From a bacterium (GTDB taxonomy: Bacteria > Patescibacteriota > Minisyncoccia > Minisyncoccales > JANBVM01), in contig JAUUXB010000002.1 of NCBI GenBank assembly GCA_030588745.1, positions 22,157 to 86,156 on the forward strand: a stretch of DNA of 64,000 nt, written 5' to 3'. The position numbers were made by a program, and so were the translations under genes. Positions 37,853 through 48,410 of this stretch are shown here, in pieces. Every line of letters starts with the position of its first letter. Positions within the stretch are counted from its first letter, which is position 1. The notes beneath the pieces were generated by a model. It was given only the letters and a program-made list of their open reading frames with translations. It did no database searches and was not told where the DNA came from.

Positions 37853-39253
37853 TTAACGCTCAATTTTCTCTTTTAAAAATTCAACTAGCTCTTTGATTTT
37901 TATCCTAACTTGTTTTGTTGTATCCCTATCTCTAATAGTAACATCATTTTGCTTTAAAGAATCGTAATCAATGGTAATACAGTATGGAGTTCCTATTTCA
38001 TCTTGAGAATAATAACGTTTACCAATATTACCTCTGTCATCCCAGGCAGTAGAAAATTCAGGCTTTAATATCTCATAAACTTGTTTGGCTTTCTTAACTA
38101 ATTCTGGTTTGTTAGCCAACAAAGGAAATACTGCTGCTTTATAAGGCGCTAAATAAGGTTTTAATTTTAAAACGATGCGTTCTTCTTTTTTTCCTTTCTC
38201 TTCAGAATAAGCATCCAACAAGACTGTTAAAAAAGACCTGTCCATTCCAAATGTTGGCTCTACAACGTGAGGAATGAATTTTTCTCCTGTTTCTTTGTCT
38301 GTGTAACGTAAATCAACTCCTGATTTTTCCATATGGTTTTTTAAATCAAAATCAGTTCTATAAGCCAGCCCATAAAGTTCTTTAAAGCTTCCGAAAGGAA
38401 AACTATATTCTAAATCTTCTGTTTTTTTGGAATAATGAGACCTTTCTTCATCTGTGTGCTCCCGCCATCTTAGATTGTTTTTATTTACACCCAATATTTC
38501 AGTAGTCCATGTCCACATTTCTTTTTTCCAGTAATCAAATAATTTTTCCCATTTCTGTTTTTTAGGATTAAAGAAATATTCAAACTCAGAAAGATTAAAC
38601 TGAAGAGTGCGGAAAATAAAATTACCTAGACTAATTTCATTTCTAAAAGCAGGGCCTGATTGAGCCAAGCCAAAAGGAAGGCCGGGCGATAAAGAATCTA
38701 GAACATTTTTAAAATTAACAAACATGCCTTGAGCAATTTCTCCTCTTAAATAAGCTAAAGACTTATTCTCAGGAACAATACCAATATGGGTTTCAAACAA
38801 AAGATTGAATTTTCTTGGTTTGGTCCAATCAAAAGCCCCGCAAGACGAACAAACAAGTTTTTCTTTATCAATAATGTTTTTAATTTCTTCAACATCGAAA
38901 CCTTCAACTTTTATCTCATTTCCTTTTTTCTCAAAATGGTCTTCAATTAAGTGATCAGCTCTAATTCTGCTTTTGCATTTCTTACAATCAACTAAAATAT
39001 CTGTAAAACTATTAGTATGACCTGAGGCCTCCCATACTCTAGGACTCATAATAACTCCTGAATCAAGTCCATAAATATCTTCTCTATTATTAACAAAATG
39101 TTTCCACCAAAGATTTTTAATGTTATGTAAGAGTTCAACACCCAAAGGCCCATAATCATAAGTATTTGCTAAACCACCATATATCTCAGAGCCTGGAAAA
39201 ACAAAACCTCGTCTTTTCGCTAATGATGTAATTTTTGCCATTTTATCAGCCAT
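37853..39253 (-). CDS. glyS: Glycine--tRNA ligase (single-chain type)
   Basis: Class II synthetase of the homodimeric type, charging tRNA-Gly. Motifs include TYDYGPLGVELLHNIKNLWW at the N-terminus, motif 2 around GPAFRNEISLGNFIFRTLQF, and motif 3 in VVEPTFGMDRSFLTVLLDAY; a C-terminal anticodon-binding domain follows. A zinc-type insertion (CKKC...CSSCGAFDW) is present. It is 466 aa, normal. It follows the secreted protein gene by 2 nt and is the last gene before the accessory region. Confidence 0.95.
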   Translation of the reverse strand: MADKMAKITSLAKRRGFVFPGSEIYGGLANTYDYGPLGVELLHNIKNLWWKHFVNNREDIYGLDSGVIMSPRVWEASGHTNSFTDILVDCKKCKSRIRADHLIEDHFEKKGNEIKVEGFDVEEIKNIIDKEKLVCSSCGAFDWTKPRKFNLLFETHIGIVPENKSLAYLRGEIAQGMFVNFKNVLDSLSPGLPFGLAQSGPAFRNEISLGNFIFRTLQFNLSEFEYFFNPKKQKWEKLFDYWKKEMWTWTTEILGVNKNNLRWREHTDEERSHYSKKTEDLEYSFPFGSFKELYGLAYRTDFDLKNHMEKSGVDLRYTDKETGEKFIPHVVEPTFGMDRSFLTVLLDAYSEEKGKKEERIVLKLKPYLAPYKAAVFPLLANKPELVKKAKQVYEILKPEFSTAWDDRGNIGKRYYSQDEIGTPYCITIDYDSLKQNDVTIRDRDTTKQVRIKIKELVEFLKEKIER

Positions 39254-39255
39254 AT

Positions 39256-40923
39256 TTATTGAATTGTTCCATTAGTTATTGTTGGGTCATTTGGCAAGGA
39301 AGTATTAACAGCTGGAGCTGAGCTTTTAATTATGGTTTGGGTCCAGCTATCTTCAGCTGTAATCTGTACTTCATTAATTATATTAGGAATTTGACCTCTT
39401 TGATACACAGCAGGGGTAAATGAAATCTGAAAAGCAATTGTTAAAGGTGGTTCTGTAACTCCAACCCCTCTTGCCAAATCGCCTGCTAACCAGACAATTT
39501 CTCTTGATTGAGAATCAAAGGTAAATTTCTCAAATTCTGGTTCAGGAAACACTCTGCCAGTTAATTCTATGTTTTGAGGCAAAATTGCCTTTACTTTTGC
39601 ATTTTTAATATCTGAATAATGATTCCTTATATGCCACATAATTGTATAAGTGGTAGCTTCACCTACCTGCAACGGAACAGGACCAGAATTGCCAAAAACT
39701 TCATCCTGAAAATATGCTTTTTGGTCTATTCCAAGTTTTGAACCAATTTTTGTAACAAATTCTTCTTTAACCTGCCCAATAAATATTTTATTTCTTAAAA
39801 CAGGATTTTTAACACTGCCTAAATCATCTTTTAATTTTATGAAGAAATCAACCTTTCCTTCTTCTGTTGGAATTAAATATTGAAGGTCTGGAACTCTTCT
39901 CCAGTCAAAAACAATAGAGTTGTCGCCTGCTTGAAAACTTCCATAATCAGATTTTATTGTTTGAAAATCAAAAGCTTCTCCTTCTAACTGATTAATCATA
40001 AATAAATTACTTACACTATCTTCTCCCACATTTTTAAAGTAAATCTCATAATGGAGCCAATCACCAGGCACAGCAACATATTGAGGGTTTCCATTAATTT
40101 CCTGCCTGATGTAAAGAGAATGTCTAACCACTTCCACTCCTTTTGTAGCTTCTTTTAAAACAATGAACTCACCGTTCTTCCAAACACCCAACTTAGCTTT
40201 AAAAACTTTTGCTTCTCCTAAATCTCCAGAAAGCCTGCCTGAGATTTCAATTCTTCCTCCTTCTGATTTATTTAAAACAGGGATTTCCCATTCTGTCTGC
40301 TCAATTGATTTAGGAGTGGAGCTTATAAATTCAAAACCAAATGGATATTCAATCTGGCATCTCAAATTAGTTAAAAGATGTTCAATATTAGAGAAATAAT
40401 TAATCCGAAAAACAAAATCTTTGCCCGATGCAATCTTAGAAGGCAAATCAAAATCAAATACTAAAGGAGCTGACTTAATCTGGCTGGTAAAGTCAGAAGA
40501 TAGCTGGTATCTTGCTTTTAAATCTTTTGGCCTATAACTCAAAGATGCTTTAGTAATTTTAATATCTCCCTCTTTTCCCAAAATACTTATTTTAAATGAA
40601 AATGTCTTTTCTTCGCCCGGATAAATTGCTTCGCCCAATTCTTCTGGACCTAAAATCTGTCTTTCAAAAAACTCTCCGTCTTTTAAAGAATATTCAGGCG
40701 CCTCGAAAACAAGTTCTGGATTATCTAAACGAAACTCTCCTTTGTTTCTATACCTTACAACATACTCTACTTCCTCACCTAAAGTGATTTCAGATGGTCC
40801 AAAAATATCCAATCTTAAAAGTTCTTTTGAATAAACGTTTTTTTGCCAATTCCAAATAAACCAGGTTGTTCCTGCTAAAATAACTATAATAATGAAATAA
40901 TTTAAAATCTTTTTCATATTCAT
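39256..40923 (-). CDS. Membrane-anchored protein with tandem beta-sandwich (DUF11/CARDB-like) repeats
   Basis: One N-terminal anchor (MKKILNYFIIIVILAGTTWFIW) and a large extracellular part of about 520 residues with at least three beta-sandwich units. Each has the pattern of a conserved-repeat domain: V-x-Y-x-x-x-x-RNKGE, YEIYFKNVGEDSVSNL, YTIMWHIRNHYSDIKNAKVKA. Such domains occur in bacterial surface proteins and may mediate adhesion. Overlaps recO by one base, so it is translated from a housekeeping operon. Substrate or partner unknown. Confidence 0.7.
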   Translation of the reverse strand: MNMKKILNYFIIIVILAGTTWFIWNWQKNVYSKELLRLDIFGPSEITLGEEVEYVVRYRNKGEFRLDNPELVFEAPEYSLKDGEFFERQILGPEELGEAIYPGEEKTFSFKISILGKEGDIKITKASLSYRPKDLKARYQLSSDFTSQIKSAPLVFDFDLPSKIASGKDFVFRINYFSNIEHLLTNLRCQIEYPFGFEFISSTPKSIEQTEWEIPVLNKSEGGRIEISGRLSGDLGEAKVFKAKLGVWKNGEFIVLKEATKGVEVVRHSLYIRQEINGNPQYVAVPGDWLHYEIYFKNVGEDSVSNLFMINQLEGEAFDFQTIKSDYGSFQAGDNSIVFDWRRVPDLQYLIPTEEGKVDFFIKLKDDLGSVKNPVLRNKIFIGQVKEEFVTKIGSKLGIDQKAYFQDEVFGNSGPVPLQVGEATTYTIMWHIRNHYSDIKNAKVKAILPQNIELTGRVFPEPEFEKFTFDSQSREIVWLAGDLARGVGVTEPPLTIAFQISFTPAVYQRGQIPNIINEVQITAEDSWTQTIIKSSAPAVNTSLPNDPTITNGTIQ

Positions 40924-41651
40924 TAAATTTGTCCACTTATTTCTAGGATAAAAGATAAATAATGTTTTGAAAACTCCTCTAAATCTTTTAAGTCTTTATC
41001 ATTTATTTTTAATCTAGAAATTACCTCTAGTTTTTTCTCACTGATAAAACGTATTATTTTAATTGTTTCTGGACTCACTAATATATCTGATTTATCTTTT
41101 GAAAGGCAATTTTTACAAATTATACCTTGTTTTTTAGGGCTAAAATAAATACTCTCAGGTTTTAGTTTTTCTTCACAAGCCAAACAATTATATAAATCAG
41201 GCCTATAACCTAAAACAGATAAAAATTTCCAGAGAAAATAATAATAAATTATTCTTGTGTTTTTAAAACTTCTGTCATCTAATTTTCTAAAAACCTCTAA
41301 CAATAAATTCCAAATATTTTCATCTGACTCTTGCCCTTTAATTAAATCATCTAAAACCTGTCTAATGCTGTGGGTTATATCAAGTCTTTTTAAATCTTCC
41401 CTTAAATTTTTAAATTTTTCAATTGCGATTGCATCTGTTAATGTCTTGTAATTCTTTCCTTGGATAAATTCAATTTCTGATAAATAAAAAATCTCAATCC
41501 CTGATTTTAATTTTGAAGTCATCTTACGTATTGCTTTTGCTAAAATCTCTAATCTTCCAAAATCCTTTGTATAAACACTAAATAGCTGATCAGCTTCTTT
41601 TCTATCCACCTTTCTGAAAATAATACCTTGGGTCCTATAATGAACGAACAT
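40923..41651 (-). CDS. recO: DNA repair protein RecO
   Basis: Recombination mediator working with RecR to load RecA. The N-terminal OB-fold begins YRTQGIIFRKVDRKEADQLF and the zinc finger is CLACEEKL...CKNCLS. The ORF track begins at a TTG overlapping the previous gene by 17 nt; ATG 41651, one base after that gene's TAG, is the better start and matches the family N-terminus. 242 aa, normal. Confidence 0.88.
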   Translation of the reverse strand: MFVHYRTQGIIFRKVDRKEADQLFSVYTKDFGRLEILAKAIRKMTSKLKSGIEIFYLSEIEFIQGKNYKTLTDAIAIEKFKNLREDLKRLDITHSIRQVLDDLIKGQESDENIWNLLLEVFRKLDDRSFKNTRIIYYYFLWKFLSVLGYRPDLYNCLACEEKLKPESIYFSPKKQGIICKNCLSKDKSDILVSPETIKIIRFISEKKLEVISRLKINDKDLKDLEEFSKHYLSFILEISGQI

Positions 41652-41652
41652 T

Positions 41653-42093
41653 CTATTTTTGAAGTCCAAAAAGTTTTTTTAGTGCTTCACGCTCTTTTTT
41701 TATCACAGACTCTTCTGGTGTACCCCTAAACGAAGATTGTTCCTTGCCTAATTTTTTATATATAGCCCTAATATCACCTGGGTTGAAAGTAGTTTTGTTT
41801 GGTGGCAGTAAATTTTTAAGTTTTTCTGCAAATTTCTTTCTTTGCGCTTCACCCATTTGAATATTAGTGTCTTTATAAAAATCTTCTCTACCTTTTAATA
41901 TCCCCATCAAAGATTTTTTCTCAAAAAATTCTTGCTTTTTAAGAACACTTGAACCAGTAGTTCCTTTTGGAACTTCTGTCTTTTTAACTTCCGGTTTTTT
42001 TGCCTTTGGTGGTAAGCTATATTCTCTTGGTGGCCCTTGTGGCTCACCCCACATTTTTCGTCCAAATTGTCCGCTTTTATTTTCTAAAACCAT
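41653..42093 (-). CDS. Hypothetical basic protein between ileS and recO (146 aa)
   Basis: Not recognised. N-terminal 60 residues are low-complexity and Pro/Lys-rich (PPKAKKPEVKKTEVPKG), probably disordered. The C-terminal 85 residues are helical and charged (AQRKKFAEKLKNLLPP, KEREALKKLFGLQK). No membrane segment. Lies 15 nt after ileS. Its C-terminal helices and context suggest a nucleic-acid or ribosome partner, but this is only a guess. Confidence 0.6.
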   Translation of the reverse strand: MVLENKSGQFGRKMWGEPQGPPREYSLPPKAKKPEVKKTEVPKGTTGSSVLKKQEFFEKKSLMGILKGREDFYKDTNIQMGEAQRKKFAEKLKNLLPPNKTTFNPGDIRAIYKKLGKEQSSFRGTPEESVIKKEREALKKLFGLQK

Positions 42094-42108: not shown

Positions 42109-45100
42109 TTAGTTCCCGACCTTTTTAATAAATAATTGTATTTTTTGACCATTAATACTTAATTCTTTCCCTTTTTTTAATCCCTTAACCAAATCCAAAT
42201 CTTTTGCTTTTGTTTCTTTAATAATTATTTTTTCTTTTCTTAATAAAAGCTCGCTCATATCATGTTCTGCTTTAAACTGAATTATAATAATATCTTTTGG
42301 AGTCAGTTTTTGTTTTTTTCTTGCTTCTTGAATATTTCTAATCACCTCTCTTACTATTCCTTGTTCTTGTAACTGCTTGGTAATTTTTGTGTTAAGCTTT
42401 ATTTCTTTTCCAAAACCAACATTTAAAACATTAACTTCTTGCTTAATTAAATCCAAAAGCTCATTTTCATTTTTTAATTCTTTATCCTTAATAATTAACT
42501 CCTGTAATGCCTGTCTTACTTTAATTCCATGCTTTGCTCTTTCAGCTAAAGCTTGGGTAACAATTTCCCGAGTTTTTTCCATTTTCTTATTCAATTTTTC
42601 ATCAACAGATTTTTCAGTTGTTTTGGGCCAATCTTCTAAATGAACTGAATCTTTAATTTTAAACCCTGCTTTTTTAAAATCCTGATATATGTATTCAGTA
42701 AAAAAGGGAATAAAAGGAGCTGATAGCTTTATTGTCTGAAAAATCACAAAGCTCAAAGTTCCAGCAGCATCTTTTAATTCCATATCAGTTTTTGGCTGTT
42801 GGAATCTTTTTCTAGATCTTCTAATATACCATAAAGAAAGTTCATTCATAACAAATTTTTCAATGCTTCTAGCTGCACCAGTTATATCATAATTTTCTAG
42901 CAATTTAGTGGTTTTTACAATCAGTTCATTAAGTTTAGAAATAATCCATCTGTCTAAAATATGCTTGGAAGGTGGATTTTTAAAACTTAAGGATTCACCA
43001 TCAGTGTAAGTTTTTAAAAAAACATAGGAATTCCATAAAGGAAGAATGAATTTCCTTAGACTATTTTCTGGTTCTTTTTCTGAAAACAGCTTTGAATCAC
43101 CGGGCTGATTAACAGTGTAAAATGACCACCTTAAAGCATCAGTTGAATATTTTTCAATAATATGCCATGGATCAATTATATTTCCTTTTGATTTTGACAT
43201 TTTTTCACCTTTTTCATCCAAAATATGACCCAAAGAAACAACGTTTTTATAGGATGGTCCTTTTCCAAGCAAAGTAGAGACAGCAAGTAAAGTATAAAAC
43301 CAGCCTCTTGTTTGGTCTATTGCTTCACAGATATAATGAGCAGGAAATTGCTTGTTTTCATCAATAAGCTTTTTATTTTCAAAAGGATAATGATATTGAG
43401 CAAAAGGCATTGCTCCTGAATCAAACCAGCAATCTATTACTTCAGGAACTCTTTCCATTAAAGCCCCGCAACCAGAGCACTGAAATTTCACATTATCAAT
43501 ATAAGGTCTGTGTAAATCCATCTCTAGGTTTTTATTAAAAGGCAATACTCTAAATTCTATCTCTTCCAGTTTGCCTGTTTTCATTTTGTTTCCTTTTTTA
43601 CGCCAGTTTAAAATTTTTTCAAGAGACCAACCCTCTAAAGTTTTTTTAAAAACACCTAAAGGAAGTTCATGAGAAACAATTAAAATATTTTTTCCTTTAT
43701 ACTTTTTATCAATCTCTTTTAAAAAGTTGTACATTCTTTTTTTCAAATCTTTCACGCTTTCACCTCTGGGAGCTTTTGTTTCAGTCAAATTTCCTTTTTT
43801 TTCAAAATACTCCCAAACCAGCCCAGGTGCTTTACCATTAAAAGTACCAATATCAAATTCCCTTAATCTTTTGCTGAATTTAAGTGAAGCTTTAGTTGTT
43901 TCAGCTATAATTTCAGCAGTTTGTTTTGTTCGCAGTAAGTCTGACGAAAAAATTAAATCCAAATCCATTTTTGCCAATTTATCTCCTGCTTTTTTAGCTT
44001 CTTTTTTTCCTTTATCAGTTAAAGGGCAGTGAATTTTCTCAGGCCAGCATGAAGTAACTCCTTTTGCCTGTTTTATACTCTCACCATGACGAATTATAAA
44101 ATAATTGTTGTTGCTAAACTTCTGTTTTAACAAATCACTAATACCGCCAATTACCACCTGATTTTTACAATGAGCGCACTGCCAAACAGGAAGAGGAGTC
44201 CCCCAATACCTTTCTCTTGAAATTGCCCAGTCCTTAACCTCTCTTAACCATTCGCCAAATCTTCCTTTTTTAAGATAAGACGGATACCAATTTATTTTTG
44301 CATTATTAGCAATCAAATCCTTTTTAACTTTTGTCATTTCTATAAACCAGCTTTTTTTTGCGTAATAAAGAAGCGGTGTTTTGCATCTCCAGCAAAATGG
44401 ATAATCATGTTCATACAATTCTTGCTTGAACAACAACCCTCTTTCTTTTAAATCCTCAATTATTAAAGGGTCAGCTTCTTTAAAATACATTCTTGCCCAT
44501 TTTTCAACATTTAATCTAAACCTCCCTTCATCATCAATGTTTAATAAAATTGGCAGTTTATTCTTTCTTCCAACCTCCATATCATCTATTCCATAAGCAG
44601 GGGCAATGTGAACAAGACCTGTTCCTTCGTCCAGAGAAACAAAATCTCCTCCAATAACTTTGTAGGCATTTCTTGAAACCTCATCTTCTGCTGGATATAG
44701 GGCTTCGTATCTTAAATTAAACAAATCTTTTCCTTTGAATTCACCAACAATTTCACCCTTAAGGTCCAAATTCTTAATTCTTTCTTTTGCTAATATTAAA
44801 TACTCATCATTAACTTTAACTTTTGCATAAACCAATTTAGGATTTACTGCTACAGCTACATTACCAGGCAATGTCCAGGGAGTAGTTGTCCATACCAAAA
44901 AAGAAGTATTTTTAAAATTAGGGCTAATAATCTTGAATTTAATAAAAACTGATGGTTCTTTTATTTTTTTATACCCCTGAGCCACCTCATGGCTTGAAAG
45001 AGGAGTTCCACACCTAGGACAATATGGAACAACTTTAAAATCTTGAATCAAAAGTTTCTTTTGCCAGATTTGCTTTAATATCCACCACAATGATTCAACA

Positions 45101-45546
45101 TACTCAGAATTATAGGTGATATAAGGATTATCTATATCCACCCAATAACCAATTTTTTCTGTTAAATCTACCCAGGCCTTTGTAAAATTCCAGACAGATA
45201 TTTTGCATTTTTTATTAAATTTAGAAATACCATATTTTTCAATATCTTTTTTTGATTTTAAGCCAAGCTTTTTTTCAATCTGAAGCTCAACTGGCAAACC
45301 ATGTGTATCCCAACCACCTTTTCTTAAAACCCTAAAACCCTTCATTGTTTTATATCTACAAATTATATCTTTAAAAACCCTGGCTAAAACATGATGAAGT
45401 CCTGGAGGAGCATTAGCAGTAGGAGGACCTTCATAAAACACAAAATCACGAGCTTTAGCTCGTTGTTGTATGCTTTTTTCAAATATCTTTTTATCTTTCC
45501 AGAACTTTAAAACTTTTACTTGCTTTTTAGGTAAGTCTAGTTTCAT
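42109..45546 (-). CDS. ileS: Isoleucine--tRNA ligase with inserted histidine-phosphatase domain
   Basis: Class Ia synthetase: HIGH-type motif PPGLHHVLARV near residue 48, editing domain with VWTTTPWTLPGNVAV (about 218), KMSKS at 782-786. Between the zinc pair CAHC (457-460) and CSGC (690-693) lies an extra domain of about 180 residues that is a complete histidine phosphatase: FIIRHGES (486), SSDLLRTKQTAE (534-545), RGESVKDLKKRM and IVSHELPLG with H626. Total 1145 aa against about 920-1050 for usual IleRS. All catalytic residues of both enzymes appear intact. Preceded by TTGAAA-17-TATTTT. Confidence 0.93.
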   Translation of the reverse strand: MKLDLPKKQVKVLKFWKDKKIFEKSIQQRAKARDFVFYEGPPTANAPPGLHHVLARVFKDIICRYKTMKGFRVLRKGGWDTHGLPVELQIEKKLGLKSKKDIEKYGISKFNKKCKISVWNFTKAWVDLTEKIGYWVDIDNPYITYNSEYVESLWWILKQIWQKKLLIQDFKVVPYCPRCGTPLSSHEVAQGYKKIKEPSVFIKFKIISPNFKNTSFLVWTTTPWTLPGNVAVAVNPKLVYAKVKVNDEYLILAKERIKNLDLKGEIVGEFKGKDLFNLRYEALYPAEDEVSRNAYKVIGGDFVSLDEGTGLVHIAPAYGIDDMEVGRKNKLPILLNIDDEGRFRLNVEKWARMYFKEADPLIIEDLKERGLLFKQELYEHDYPFCWRCKTPLLYYAKKSWFIEMTKVKKDLIANNAKINWYPSYLKKGRFGEWLREVKDWAISRERYWGTPLPVWQCAHCKNQVVIGGISDLLKQKFSNNNYFIIRHGESIKQAKGVTSCWPEKIHCPLTDKGKKEAKKAGDKLAKMDLDLIFSSDLLRTKQTAEIIAETTKASLKFSKRLREFDIGTFNGKAPGLVWEYFEKKGNLTETKAPRGESVKDLKKRMYNFLKEIDKKYKGKNILIVSHELPLGVFKKTLEGWSLEKILNWRKKGNKMKTGKLEEIEFRVLPFNKNLEMDLHRPYIDNVKFQCSGCGALMERVPEVIDCWFDSGAMPFAQYHYPFENKKLIDENKQFPAHYICEAIDQTRGWFYTLLAVSTLLGKGPSYKNVVSLGHILDEKGEKMSKSKGNIIDPWHIIEKYSTDALRWSFYTVNQPGDSKLFSEKEPENSLRKFILPLWNSYVFLKTYTDGESLSFKNPPSKHILDRWIISKLNELIVKTTKLLENYDITGAARSIEKFVMNELSLWYIRRSRKRFQQPKTDMELKDAAGTLSFVIFQTIKLSAPFIPFFTEYIYQDFKKAGFKIKDSVHLEDWPKTTEKSVDEKLNKKMEKTREIVTQALAERAKHGIKVRQALQELIIKDKELKNENELLDLIKQEVNVLNVGFGKEIKLNTKITKQLQEQGIVREVIRNIQEARKKQKLTPKDIIIIQFKAEHDMSELLLRKEKIIIKETKAKDLDLVKGLKKGKELSINGQKIQLFIKKVGN

Positions 45547-45636: not shown

Positions 45637-47220
45637 TTACATTTTTTCAGGAGCCAAAATTGCCATTAAGTCAAAGGTTTCTTTAAGCACAGTTTTAGTT
45701 GCCAAAATTAAAGCTATTCTAGCCTGCTGTAACTTTTCATCCTCAGCCAAAACCCTGCAGTCTTTATAGAATTTATGGAAAACAGTAGCTAAATCAATCA
45801 TGTATTGAGGCAGTCTTTGAACTTGATAATCATTGGCTGTGTCTTCAATTATTTCTGGAAATTTAACAAGTTCTTTTATTAATTTAATTTCAGAAGAATG
45901 TTTTAGCAAAGAAAAATCAGGTCTTGTTTTTTTTGCTTTTGTTTTTCTTAAAATACTGCAGATTCTTGCATAAGCATATTGAACATAATAAACCGGATTT
46001 TTCTCTGATTGCTCTTTGGCTAAATCTAAATCGAAATTTAAATGAGTATCTGCTGATCTTGTTAAAAAAAAGAATCTAACAACGTCTTTGCCCACCATAT
46101 CAATTAAATCATCCATTGTTACATAACGGCCTGCTCTTTTTGACATTTTTAATTTCTTTTGTTTCTCAAAAAGGGTGACGAATTGCAGAAGAACAATATC
46201 AAGTTTCCCCTTATAACCAAGAGCCTCAACAACTGCCTGAAGACCAGCTACATCTCCATAATGGTCGGCTCCCCAAATATTAATCACTTTGTCAAACTTT
46301 TTGTCTTTAAATTTATACTCATGAAGAGCCGTATCTCCTGCCAAATATGTTTTCCATTTATTTGATTTTACTATTACTCTATCTCTATCATCACCATATT
46401 GTTTTGATTTAAACCATAAAGCTCCTTCTTTTTCGTATAAAAAGCCTTTTTTCTTTAATTTATCTATTACCTTATCAACTAATCCAGACTTATGAAAATT
46501 TGTTTCTGAAATCCATTCATCATATTTAATACTCATCTTATCAGTGGTTTTTTTAATCATTTCTTTAATAATAATCTTCGCTGCCTCTTCCCCTGCCTTA
46601 TATACATCTTTGCTTTTAATTCTTTTGTTTAAATCATCAATATATGCTCCTTTGTATTTTGCTTCTTTGTCTTTTAAAACAGAGTGTCCTAAAGTCATAA
46701 TCTGCATTCCATAATCATTTATATAATAAGCTTTTTCTGTCTTGTAACCGGCTTTTTTTAAAACATTTGCCAAAACATCACCAAATGGCCCACCTCTGGC
46801 GTTACCAACTGTTAAAGGACCTGTTGGGTTTGCAGAAATAAACTCAACCTGAACTTTTTTATTTTTCCCAATATTTAATTGACCAAATTTATCTTTTTGT
46901 TTAAGAATTTTATCAACTTGTTCTTGGAGATATTTTTCTGAAATGAAAAAATTGATAAAGCCCGGTTTTACTATCTTAATTCTTTCAAATAAACTTGATA
47001 TTTTAGCCTTGAAATTCTCAGTTAACAATTCTGCTATTTCCATTGGATCTTTCTTTGTTTTTCTTGCAATTATCATTGCAATATTAGTTGAATAATCTCC
47101 ATGAATCTTTTTTTCAGGATATTCAACTTTAATTTCAGCAATATCAAAATCAATAAGCCCCTTTTTCTGAAGCTTATTTATTGATTCTTGTATCAGGTTT
47201 TTTATTTCTTGTTTAATCAT
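45637..47220 (-). CDS. argS: Arginine--tRNA ligase
   Basis: Class Ia synthetase. The HIGH equivalent is in SANPTGPLTVGNARGGPFGD, the KMSKS loop is KLKMSKRAGRYVTMDDL, and the C-terminal DALR anticodon-binding domain contains VQYAYARICSILRK. N-terminal Add-1 domain present. 527 aa, near the lower end of the family. It overlaps the HMG-CoA reductase gene by 8 nt, so both are in one operon. Confidence 0.95.
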   Translation of the reverse strand: MIKQEIKNLIQESINKLQKKGLIDFDIAEIKVEYPEKKIHGDYSTNIAMIIARKTKKDPMEIAELLTENFKAKISSLFERIKIVKPGFINFFISEKYLQEQVDKILKQKDKFGQLNIGKNKKVQVEFISANPTGPLTVGNARGGPFGDVLANVLKKAGYKTEKAYYINDYGMQIMTLGHSVLKDKEAKYKGAYIDDLNKRIKSKDVYKAGEEAAKIIIKEMIKKTTDKMSIKYDEWISETNFHKSGLVDKVIDKLKKKGFLYEKEGALWFKSKQYGDDRDRVIVKSNKWKTYLAGDTALHEYKFKDKKFDKVINIWGADHYGDVAGLQAVVEALGYKGKLDIVLLQFVTLFEKQKKLKMSKRAGRYVTMDDLIDMVGKDVVRFFFLTRSADTHLNFDLDLAKEQSEKNPVYYVQYAYARICSILRKTKAKKTRPDFSLLKHSSEIKLIKELVKFPEIIEDTANDYQVQRLPQYMIDLATVFHKFYKDCRVLAEDEKLQQARIALILATKTVLKETFDLMAILAPEKM

Positions 47221-48403
47221 TTTTTAATAGTTTTTCTATTCTATTATGAAGCCTCATATGACCCTTTTGAATTCCCTCTGAAACTAAAGCTCTTAAAGCT
47301 GCTAAATTCTGGGCTAAACCAACACCAGCCATGACACAAGCTAGTTCCTGGGCTGATTTTACATTTAATATCTTTAAAGAAACTCTGGCTACTGGATAAG
47401 CTGATATTGTTCCTCCAGTCACTCCAACTGCTATTGGGAGCGTCATTTCTCCAATCAAATCACCACTATTAGTCTTTGTCCATTTAGTCAAGGGCAGGTA
47501 TCTTCCTGATTTTGCTGCATATCCATGCGCTCCTGCTTCAAGCGCTCTCCAGTCATTTGAAACGGCCAAAGCAACTGCTCCCATTCCATTTAAAATGCCT
47601 TTGTTATTGGTAACTGCCCTGTAAATATCAGTTTCAGCTATGGCCTGAGCTTTAATAATATTTTCAACTACTTCTTCACCTTTAAATCCTTTTGTTGTTA
47701 AAGATTCTTTTAAAACTTTTCCTTTAACTTTCACTAATCTTTTGTCAGCTAAATTGGAAATAATTTTAAAAACTGCTTTTTTATTTACAATCTTTTCAAT
47801 TAAAGAAGAAATGCCCTCAATCATTGTATCTACTGTATTGGCCCCCATAGCGTCTTTAGTATCTACCAATAAATGAATTCTTAAAATCGTCCCTATGTTT
47901 TTATTATTTAAAACAGTTAGTTCTAGGTCTTTTGCACCGGCCCCCATCCTAATCAAATCAGGCTTTTTGGAATTAGCAAGCTTAATAATTTCTTTTTTTT
48001 TCTCTAAAATTTTTTCTTTAGCTTTTTTGACATTTTCTAAGCCTGTTAAATAAATCTGTCCTATCATCTGATTGCCCAAATTCTCAGCTTTAATTCCTCC
48101 ATTTGTTCTTAGCAACTTTGCTCCATAACAAGCTGCAGCAACCACAGAAGGCTCTTCAGTTACCATTGGCACAAGGTAATCTTTTTTATTTATTAAAAAG
48201 TTTACAGCAATACTATAAGGAAGAGAAAAAGTACCAATCACATTTTCAGCCATCCTATCTCTTAATTCTGGTTTTAATGCGCCTTTTTCAATGATTTCAA
48301 GCTCTTTATCAGTTAAATCAGCAAACTCTTTTACTTTTTTAAGTTTTTGTTTTCTGTTTAATTTAAAAAATCCAGGGATTCTGCTATTTTTCTTCTCATT
48401 CAT
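47213..48403 (-). CDS. mvaA: Hydroxymethylglutaryl-CoA reductase (class II type)
   Basis: Produces (or degrades) mevalonate from HMG-CoA with NAD(P)H. Visible motifs: ENVIGTFSLPYSIAVNF, TEEPSVVAAACYGAKLLR with the catalytic Glu, DAMGANTVDTMIEG with the catalytic Asp, and GHMRLH with the C-terminal catalytic His. These fit the bacterial class II enzyme. The ATG at 48403 is taken as the start: it lies 7 nt from TAATCT, so the message is leaderless; the ORF-track TTG is one codon upstream. The lower mevalonate kinases are at 55.8-58.8 kb. Confidence 0.92.
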   Translation of the reverse strand: MNEKKNSRIPGFFKLNRKQKLKKVKEFADLTDKELEIIEKGALKPELRDRMAENVIGTFSLPYSIAVNFLINKKDYLVPMVTEEPSVVAAACYGAKLLRTNGGIKAENLGNQMIGQIYLTGLENVKKAKEKILEKKKEIIKLANSKKPDLIRMGAGAKDLELTVLNNKNIGTILRIHLLVDTKDAMGANTVDTMIEGISSLIEKIVNKKAVFKIISNLADKRLVKVKGKVLKESLTTKGFKGEEVVENIIKAQAIAETDIYRAVTNNKGILNGMGAVALAVSNDWRALEAGAHGYAAKSGRYLPLTKWTKTNSGDLIGEMTLPIAVGVTGGTISAYPVARVSLKILNVKSAQELACVMAGVGLAQNLAALRALVSEGIQKGHMRLHNRIEKLLKND

Positions 48404-48410
48404 CAATTTA

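Follow-up and report, generated by a model that had tools for sequence, protein, structure and literature searches.

The window, as we call the whole stretch of 64,000 nucleotides that was analyzed, carries on its reverse strand a gene predicted to encode an isoleucyl-tRNA synthetase (IleRS) into which a histidine phosphatase (HP) domain is inserted. The gene, its internal features, and its neighbors in the conserved cluster are listed here by coordinate.

37853..39253, minus strand: class II synthetase read as glyS
40923..41669, minus strand: recO, downstream in the conserved cluster
42109..45546, minus strand: ileS, IleRS with inserted histidine phosphatase; 1145 aa, single intact open reading frame
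43189..43203, minus strand: KMSKS, residues 782-786
43468..43479, minus strand: second CxxC; C690 and C693 correspond to C502 and C504 of 1ILE
43522..44127, minus strand: CP3 insertion, residues 474-675; replaces residues 478-487 of T. thermophilus IleRS (1ILE alignment)
43600..44100, minus strand: His_Phos_1 domain, residues 483-649; PF00300 at 120 bits (gathering score 21.7 bits), E 1.3e-34
44167..44178, minus strand: first CxxC of the CP3 zinc knuckle; C457 and C460 correspond to C461 and C464 of 1ILE
45391..45402, minus strand: class I signature GLHH, residues 49-52; the swapped GXHH form of HXGH
45637..47220, minus strand: argS, upstream neighbor; where relatives have a separate HP gene, it is located between argS and ileS

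The window protein scored 909 bits against the NCBIfam model TIGR00392 (ileS), for which the cut-off is 621, bearing out the first-pass annotation, which had called it an isoleucyl-tRNA synthetase. Its Pfam domains run in the order tRNA-synt_1, split by His_Phos_1, followed by Anticodon_1 and DUF5915, and both editing-domain motifs, TTTPWTLPGN and GTG..HIAPAYG..D, could be found. We read the frame as a bona fide IleRS that is predicted to catalyze aminoacylation. The synthetase frame, the CP3 zinc cysteines, and KMSKS are shared with type 2 IleRS (T. thermophilus 1ILE; Priestia megaterium IleRS2, 8C8U-8C9D), from which the window protein differs in having an HP domain of ∼200 residues in CP3 instead of 10 residues. 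Its GXHH signature is like that of mupirocin hyper-resistant IleRS2, in which this form of the motif works and confers the hyper-resistance (PMC10485003). The GLHH of the window is nothing special, since GXHH is common among IleRS2, and the protein missed the cut-off of the NCBIfam models for the mupirocin-resistance enzymes MupA and MupB (814 and 820 vs 1900). Another NCBIfam model, NF040702 (IleRS with an N-acetyltransferase domain), likewise describes an IleRS containing an added enzyme, but there the enzyme is a different one and the window protein scored 327 vs a cut-off of 1999 bits.

Alignment with 1ILE was unbroken up to residue 473 (477 in 1ILE) and picked up again at residue 676 (488 in 1ILE), leaving ∼202 residues in the place of 10. 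The insert therefore lies between C457-x-x-C460 and C690-x-x-C693, in the CP3 zinc hairpin. The name CP3 for this region comes from yeast IleRS, where the CP2-CP3 linker just before the insertion site lines the pocket for the tRNA end (PMC7955072). A fold model of the full-length IleRS-HP, computed from a four-sequence input, had a pLDDT of 38, too low for use. When the HP domain was modeled alone, the predicted fold was the alpha/beta fold of the superfamily, with a pLDDT of 82.5 and a pTM of 0.83, and the nearest compact solved folds were PhoE (TM 0.79), CobC (0.78), and PspA (0.76). A sequence search with the HP also placed PhoE and PspA closest. PhoE (1H2E), the phosphoserine phosphatase PspA (4IJ5), and the alpha-ribazole phosphatase CobC share with the insert the branch-1 HP fold and the catalytic set, but identity in the fold alignment is ∼20-26% and the insert, unlike them, is embedded in a synthetase. 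Every NCBIfam equivalog cut-off was missed (CobC, 88.5 vs 162.9 bits; dPGM_arch, 80.6 vs 225; GpmB, 71.7 vs 261; PspA, 71.3 vs 350), and for this reason the specificity of the HP is not predictable from its sequence. A bifunctional RNase H/acid phosphatase (PRK07238) likewise joins an HP domain to a nucleic-acid enzyme; that protein, however, is an end-to-end fusion with an unrelated partner, whereas the HP of the window is an insertion.

The catalytic set of the window HP consists of R486, H487 (the nucleophile), R539, E563 (the acid), and H626. The motifs RHGES, SDLLRTKQTAE, and SHELPLG, named when the domain was first noticed, are all present, and the domain is complete as had been claimed, although its catalytic stretch is nearer to 170 aa than to the ∼180 aa given at that time. 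At the sequence level, two more of the original claims hold: the placement of the domain at residues 460-690, within the CxxC...CxxC zinc region, and the impression that both enzymes look active. Across relatives, the R-H...R...E/D...H set was intact in 84 of 84 distinct HP domains from IleRS frames, both copies of two-HP IleRS included, in all three ValRS-borne HP domains of the same set, and in 60 of 63 separate HP genes. The three exceptions are enolase-neighbor genes of another kind, in which the last His is probably misaligned. Retention of the set in all 84 rules out a dead domain, and the suggestion that the catalytic His might be missing in most relatives fails on the same count. We obtained dN/dS values of 0.14 in a fused close pair and 0.08-0.16 in separate-gene close pairs, and the HP is under purifying selection. 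In a same-genus comparison, the HP was 61% identical vs 81% for the N part and 76% for the C part of the synthetase; by this measure the HP diverges faster than the synthetase around it. The insert is probably an active, PhoE/PspA-like branch-1 histidine phosphatase.

The genome of the window (G000, 626 kb) contains a single PF00300 protein, the IleRS-HP itself. Dozens of Patescibacteria genomes have this insert at the identical position, and carrying it is the commonest state in the class of the window. With the same architecture in so many independent genomes, misassembly, or two genes joined in error, can be dismissed. For the order, sampled by 247 genomes, fused and separate copies were counted by hand among the best ∼150 copies listed, a frame >600 aa being taken as fused and a gene of 180-240 aa (∼195 aa) as separate. 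Among these copies, 69 were in large frames and 81 were separate genes (79 genomes), and the number of genomes with both forms was zero. Most of the listed separate copies (65/81) immediately precede ileS on the same strand, with a median gap of 11 bp; nine more lie within 2.4 kb of ileS on the same strand, and seven are elsewhere or on another contig. At E≤1e-30, an HP match was present in 277 of the 383 class-sample genomes and in 59 of the 379 phylum-sample genomes. Among the class matches listed outside the order, nine were separate genes (in eight genomes) and the remainder large frames, with fused status in these large tallies judged by frame length, confirmed for extracted loci, and the genomes being mostly metagenome-assembled. 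All of the large frames extracted were IleRS except six ValRS. In a scan of named genomes, the loci examined outside Patescibacteria (L004-L012) all had the HP as a separate gene, and a search for viral relatives found none.

Across the order, the cluster reads argS - (HP) - ileS - small protein - recO - 555-aa protein - class II synthetase read as glyS. Since the HP is found either in IleRS or as the gene directly before ileS, it would be made together with the synthetase and often adjacent to it. In two genomes (G007 and G010), the HP lies between argS and recO while ileS, of another type, is elsewhere; at this locus the HP either outlasted the synthetase or never sat inside one. In the window, the small protein is a 146-aa protein with no Pfam match (41653-42093, minus strand), and small proteins recur at the same place across the order. 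The 555-aa protein (39256-40923, minus strand) has a weak DUF7619 match, and relatives of it occur repeatedly in this cluster throughout the order. A hydroxymethylglutaryl-CoA reductase gene (47213-48406, minus strand) lies directly upstream of argS.

A search of IleRS sequences for PF00300 insertions, combined with their phylogeny as the first-pass annotation had proposed, placed the insertions in three IleRS types. With the HP excised, the IleRS cores formed the far-apart types A (GXHH), B (GVHH/EMHKS), and C (HYGH among others), and fused proteins are present in all three. The fusion label requires at least 10 changes on the tree, a count that cannot separate gain from loss. The N and C halves of IleRS were of the same type in 93 of 94 proteins; N/C chimeras of IleRS types, considered as a cause of HP spread, were rejected with one weak mixed case in the 94. 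In the HP trees, which come from short alignments and have modest support, the six HP domains of family f182 group together (SH-aLRT 90), and their IleRS cores belong to two types. A single clade was rejected both for five f182 IleRS cores (AU p 2.6e-10) and for the HP of type-C IleRS (AU p 5e-5). The HP groups by organism family, not by IleRS type, and the simplest reading would be a cassette retained within a lineage through exchanges of the synthetase. Since the fused state is class-wide, fusion may well be the older condition and separation the derived one.

Several synthetases contain more than one HP. Family f199 (L177-L181) has two HP domains in the CP3 region, with the zinc cysteines partly lost; the second copies fall apart from the first in the HP tree, which makes an additional acquisition more likely than tandem duplication. 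A 1572-aa IleRS (L247:1167-5882, +) has three HP domains, and another (L248:837-5228, +) has two at separate sites. The HP was also found inside ValRS in six genomes. Reading the flanks of three of them placed the HP at the equivalent zinc region in L183 and ∼45 residues beyond it in L182 and L188. Other added domains were observed in this set: a 1451-aa IleRS (L249:1638-5990, −) has a GNAT domain at 666-764 and an HP at a later site, 917-1072; two of the six HP-ValRS (L183:27-3857, +; L250:195-4037, +) carry an RBBP9-like serine hydrolase as well as the HP; and the L183 ValRS has an additional HAD-type domain near its N-terminal zinc/editing region.

Our best explanation, which we consider reasonably probable, is that an active PhoE/PspA-like phosphatase is physically or genetically tied to IleRS, making the window protein a single-chain bifunctional enzyme. 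From the architecture, catalytic set, purifying selection, linkage, and recurrence seen in these genomes, we infer a phosphatase activity, a class of substrate, and a benefit of tethering. An autonomously folding HP would sit at the tip of the CP3 zinc hairpin of a complete IleRS. The superfamily has an established mechanism, in which H487 would make the attack on a phosphomonoester while E563 protonates the leaving group and R486, R539, and H626 hold the phosphate, and the phosphohistidine would then be released by water. The substrate would most likely be a small phosphorylated metabolite (a nucleotide, sugar, or amino-acid phosphate), possibly tied to aminoacylation by IleRS or ValRS, rather than pyrophosphate or 3-phosphoglycerate. 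The linkage itself, with the HP inside IleRS or directly before ileS, would be under selection. Since the HP recurs inside or directly beside IleRS across the whole class, the two jobs are probably linked. A more far-reaching proposal, which we put forward tentatively, is that IleRS and ValRS of Patescibacteria carry cis-acting phosphatases whose catalysis is a second function of these enzymes, tied to aminoacylation; such phosphatases would have been recruited on several occasions and retained through synthetase replacement. Under such coupling the phosphatase could act on a phosphorylated molecule linked to charging, such as a by-product nucleotide, the phosphorylated end of a tRNA, or an inhibitor of the aminoacyl-nucleotide kind.

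It is also possible, and we hold this just as tentatively, that the HP is a passenger. On this view, a general housekeeping phosphatase in a streamlined genome would be co-expressed with the highly expressed ileS by occupying a CP3 loop that tolerates insertions, and it would have no coupling to aminoacylation. The HP is a separate gene in many genomes, is fused to an MFS-like protein in one (L255), and is the only PF00300 protein of the window genome, all of which a passenger would explain. Because HAD, serine hydrolase, and GNAT domains are inserted in some of these synthetases too, the sites may be generally permissive. Operon inertia would likewise suit a passenger and could account for part of the HP-ileS linkage (argS-HP-ileS-recO; G007 and G010), and the incomplete occurrence of the HP in the class and phylum samples weighs against our best explanation. 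However, a random passenger should turn up in a wide variety of hosts, whereas the large frames examined were again and again IleRS or ValRS, with the HP at several sites and in several copies, and most separate copies remain beside ileS. The repeated choice of IleRS and ValRS and the retention beside ileS favor coupling, and both the coupled and the passenger readings stand.

We regard it as improbable that the HP, with the GNAT, serine hydrolase, and HAD domains of relatives, inactivates inhibitors that mimic aminoacyl nucleotides on the target itself. The inserted set (GNAT, serine hydrolase, HP/HAD) resembles the enzymes that disarm microcin C, namely the GNAT MccE, the peptidase MccF, and a phosphoramide-cleaving HIT hydrolase (PMC7157772), which is a lead rather than a test, and the signature of the IleRS is GXHH, which in IleRS2 goes with mupirocin hyper-resistance (PMC10485003). 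Against such self-protection, the HP lies outside the HIT family, GXHH is widespread in IleRS2 without an HP, and the HP is class-wide and old whereas resistance genes are patchy. We also know of no inhibitor of this kind for these organisms, which counts further against it. Membership in the same superfamily and its status as sole PF00300 protein in G000 would allow the insert to be the cell's phosphoglycerate mutase, but this is very unlikely: G000 has a PF01676 protein adjoining enolase, the NCBIfam dPGM and GpmB cut-offs were missed, and we rejected a glycolytic role since relatives without PF01676 mostly carry a different HP gene beside enolase and two genomes without enolase and PF01676 (G003 and G012) still keep the insert. 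Removal of the pyrophosphate from aminoacylation might be suspected from the absence of soluble family I pyrophosphatase in G000 and many relatives, yet G000 has a membrane H+-pyrophosphatase, and a stand-in role for the HP is not supported because genomes without the HP subfamily (G014, G029, and G151-G157) lack both kinds too; we give this role very little credence. A structural role, raised in the first-pass annotation, is disfavored in its pure form to the point of being highly improbable. The location in the zinc hairpin and the partial loss of zinc cysteines in two-HP IleRS would agree with it, but the catalytic set is kept in 84/84, the domain is under purifying selection and recurs as a separate gene beside ileS, and many IleRS of the same order work without the insert.

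A description of an HP domain inside IleRS or ValRS could not be found in the open-access literature searched, in line with the earlier remark that no characterized example was known, and no phosphatase appears in the catalogue of synthetase domains that we consulted. The IleRS-HP architecture may be listed in automatic domain databases. Synthetases with added domains are already known; the HP as the added enzyme appears to be new. IleRS is essential and universal. An intact phosphatase that is found class-wide inside or mostly beside it, and re-recruited in other IleRS types and in ValRS, would point to an unrecognized connection of charging with phosphate chemistry in uncultured bacteria of a very large group. 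From the history of the HP it further seems that replacement of a host enzyme need not remove the domain it carries.

Four further observations were made among the relatives. A divergent IleRS type within the order (L048-L055) has GVHH, with EMHKS replacing KMSKS, and its HP is usually a separate upstream gene. A 1353-aa IleRS (L203:640-4698, +) is longer by ∼190 residues ahead of the HP insert, and this stretch gave no Pfam match. The HP fused to an MFS/Atg22-like protein, mentioned above, lies in a protein of 624 aa (L255:2185-4056, −). Lastly, in family f177 (L256 and L257), the HP is C-terminal in proteins of 446-462 aa.
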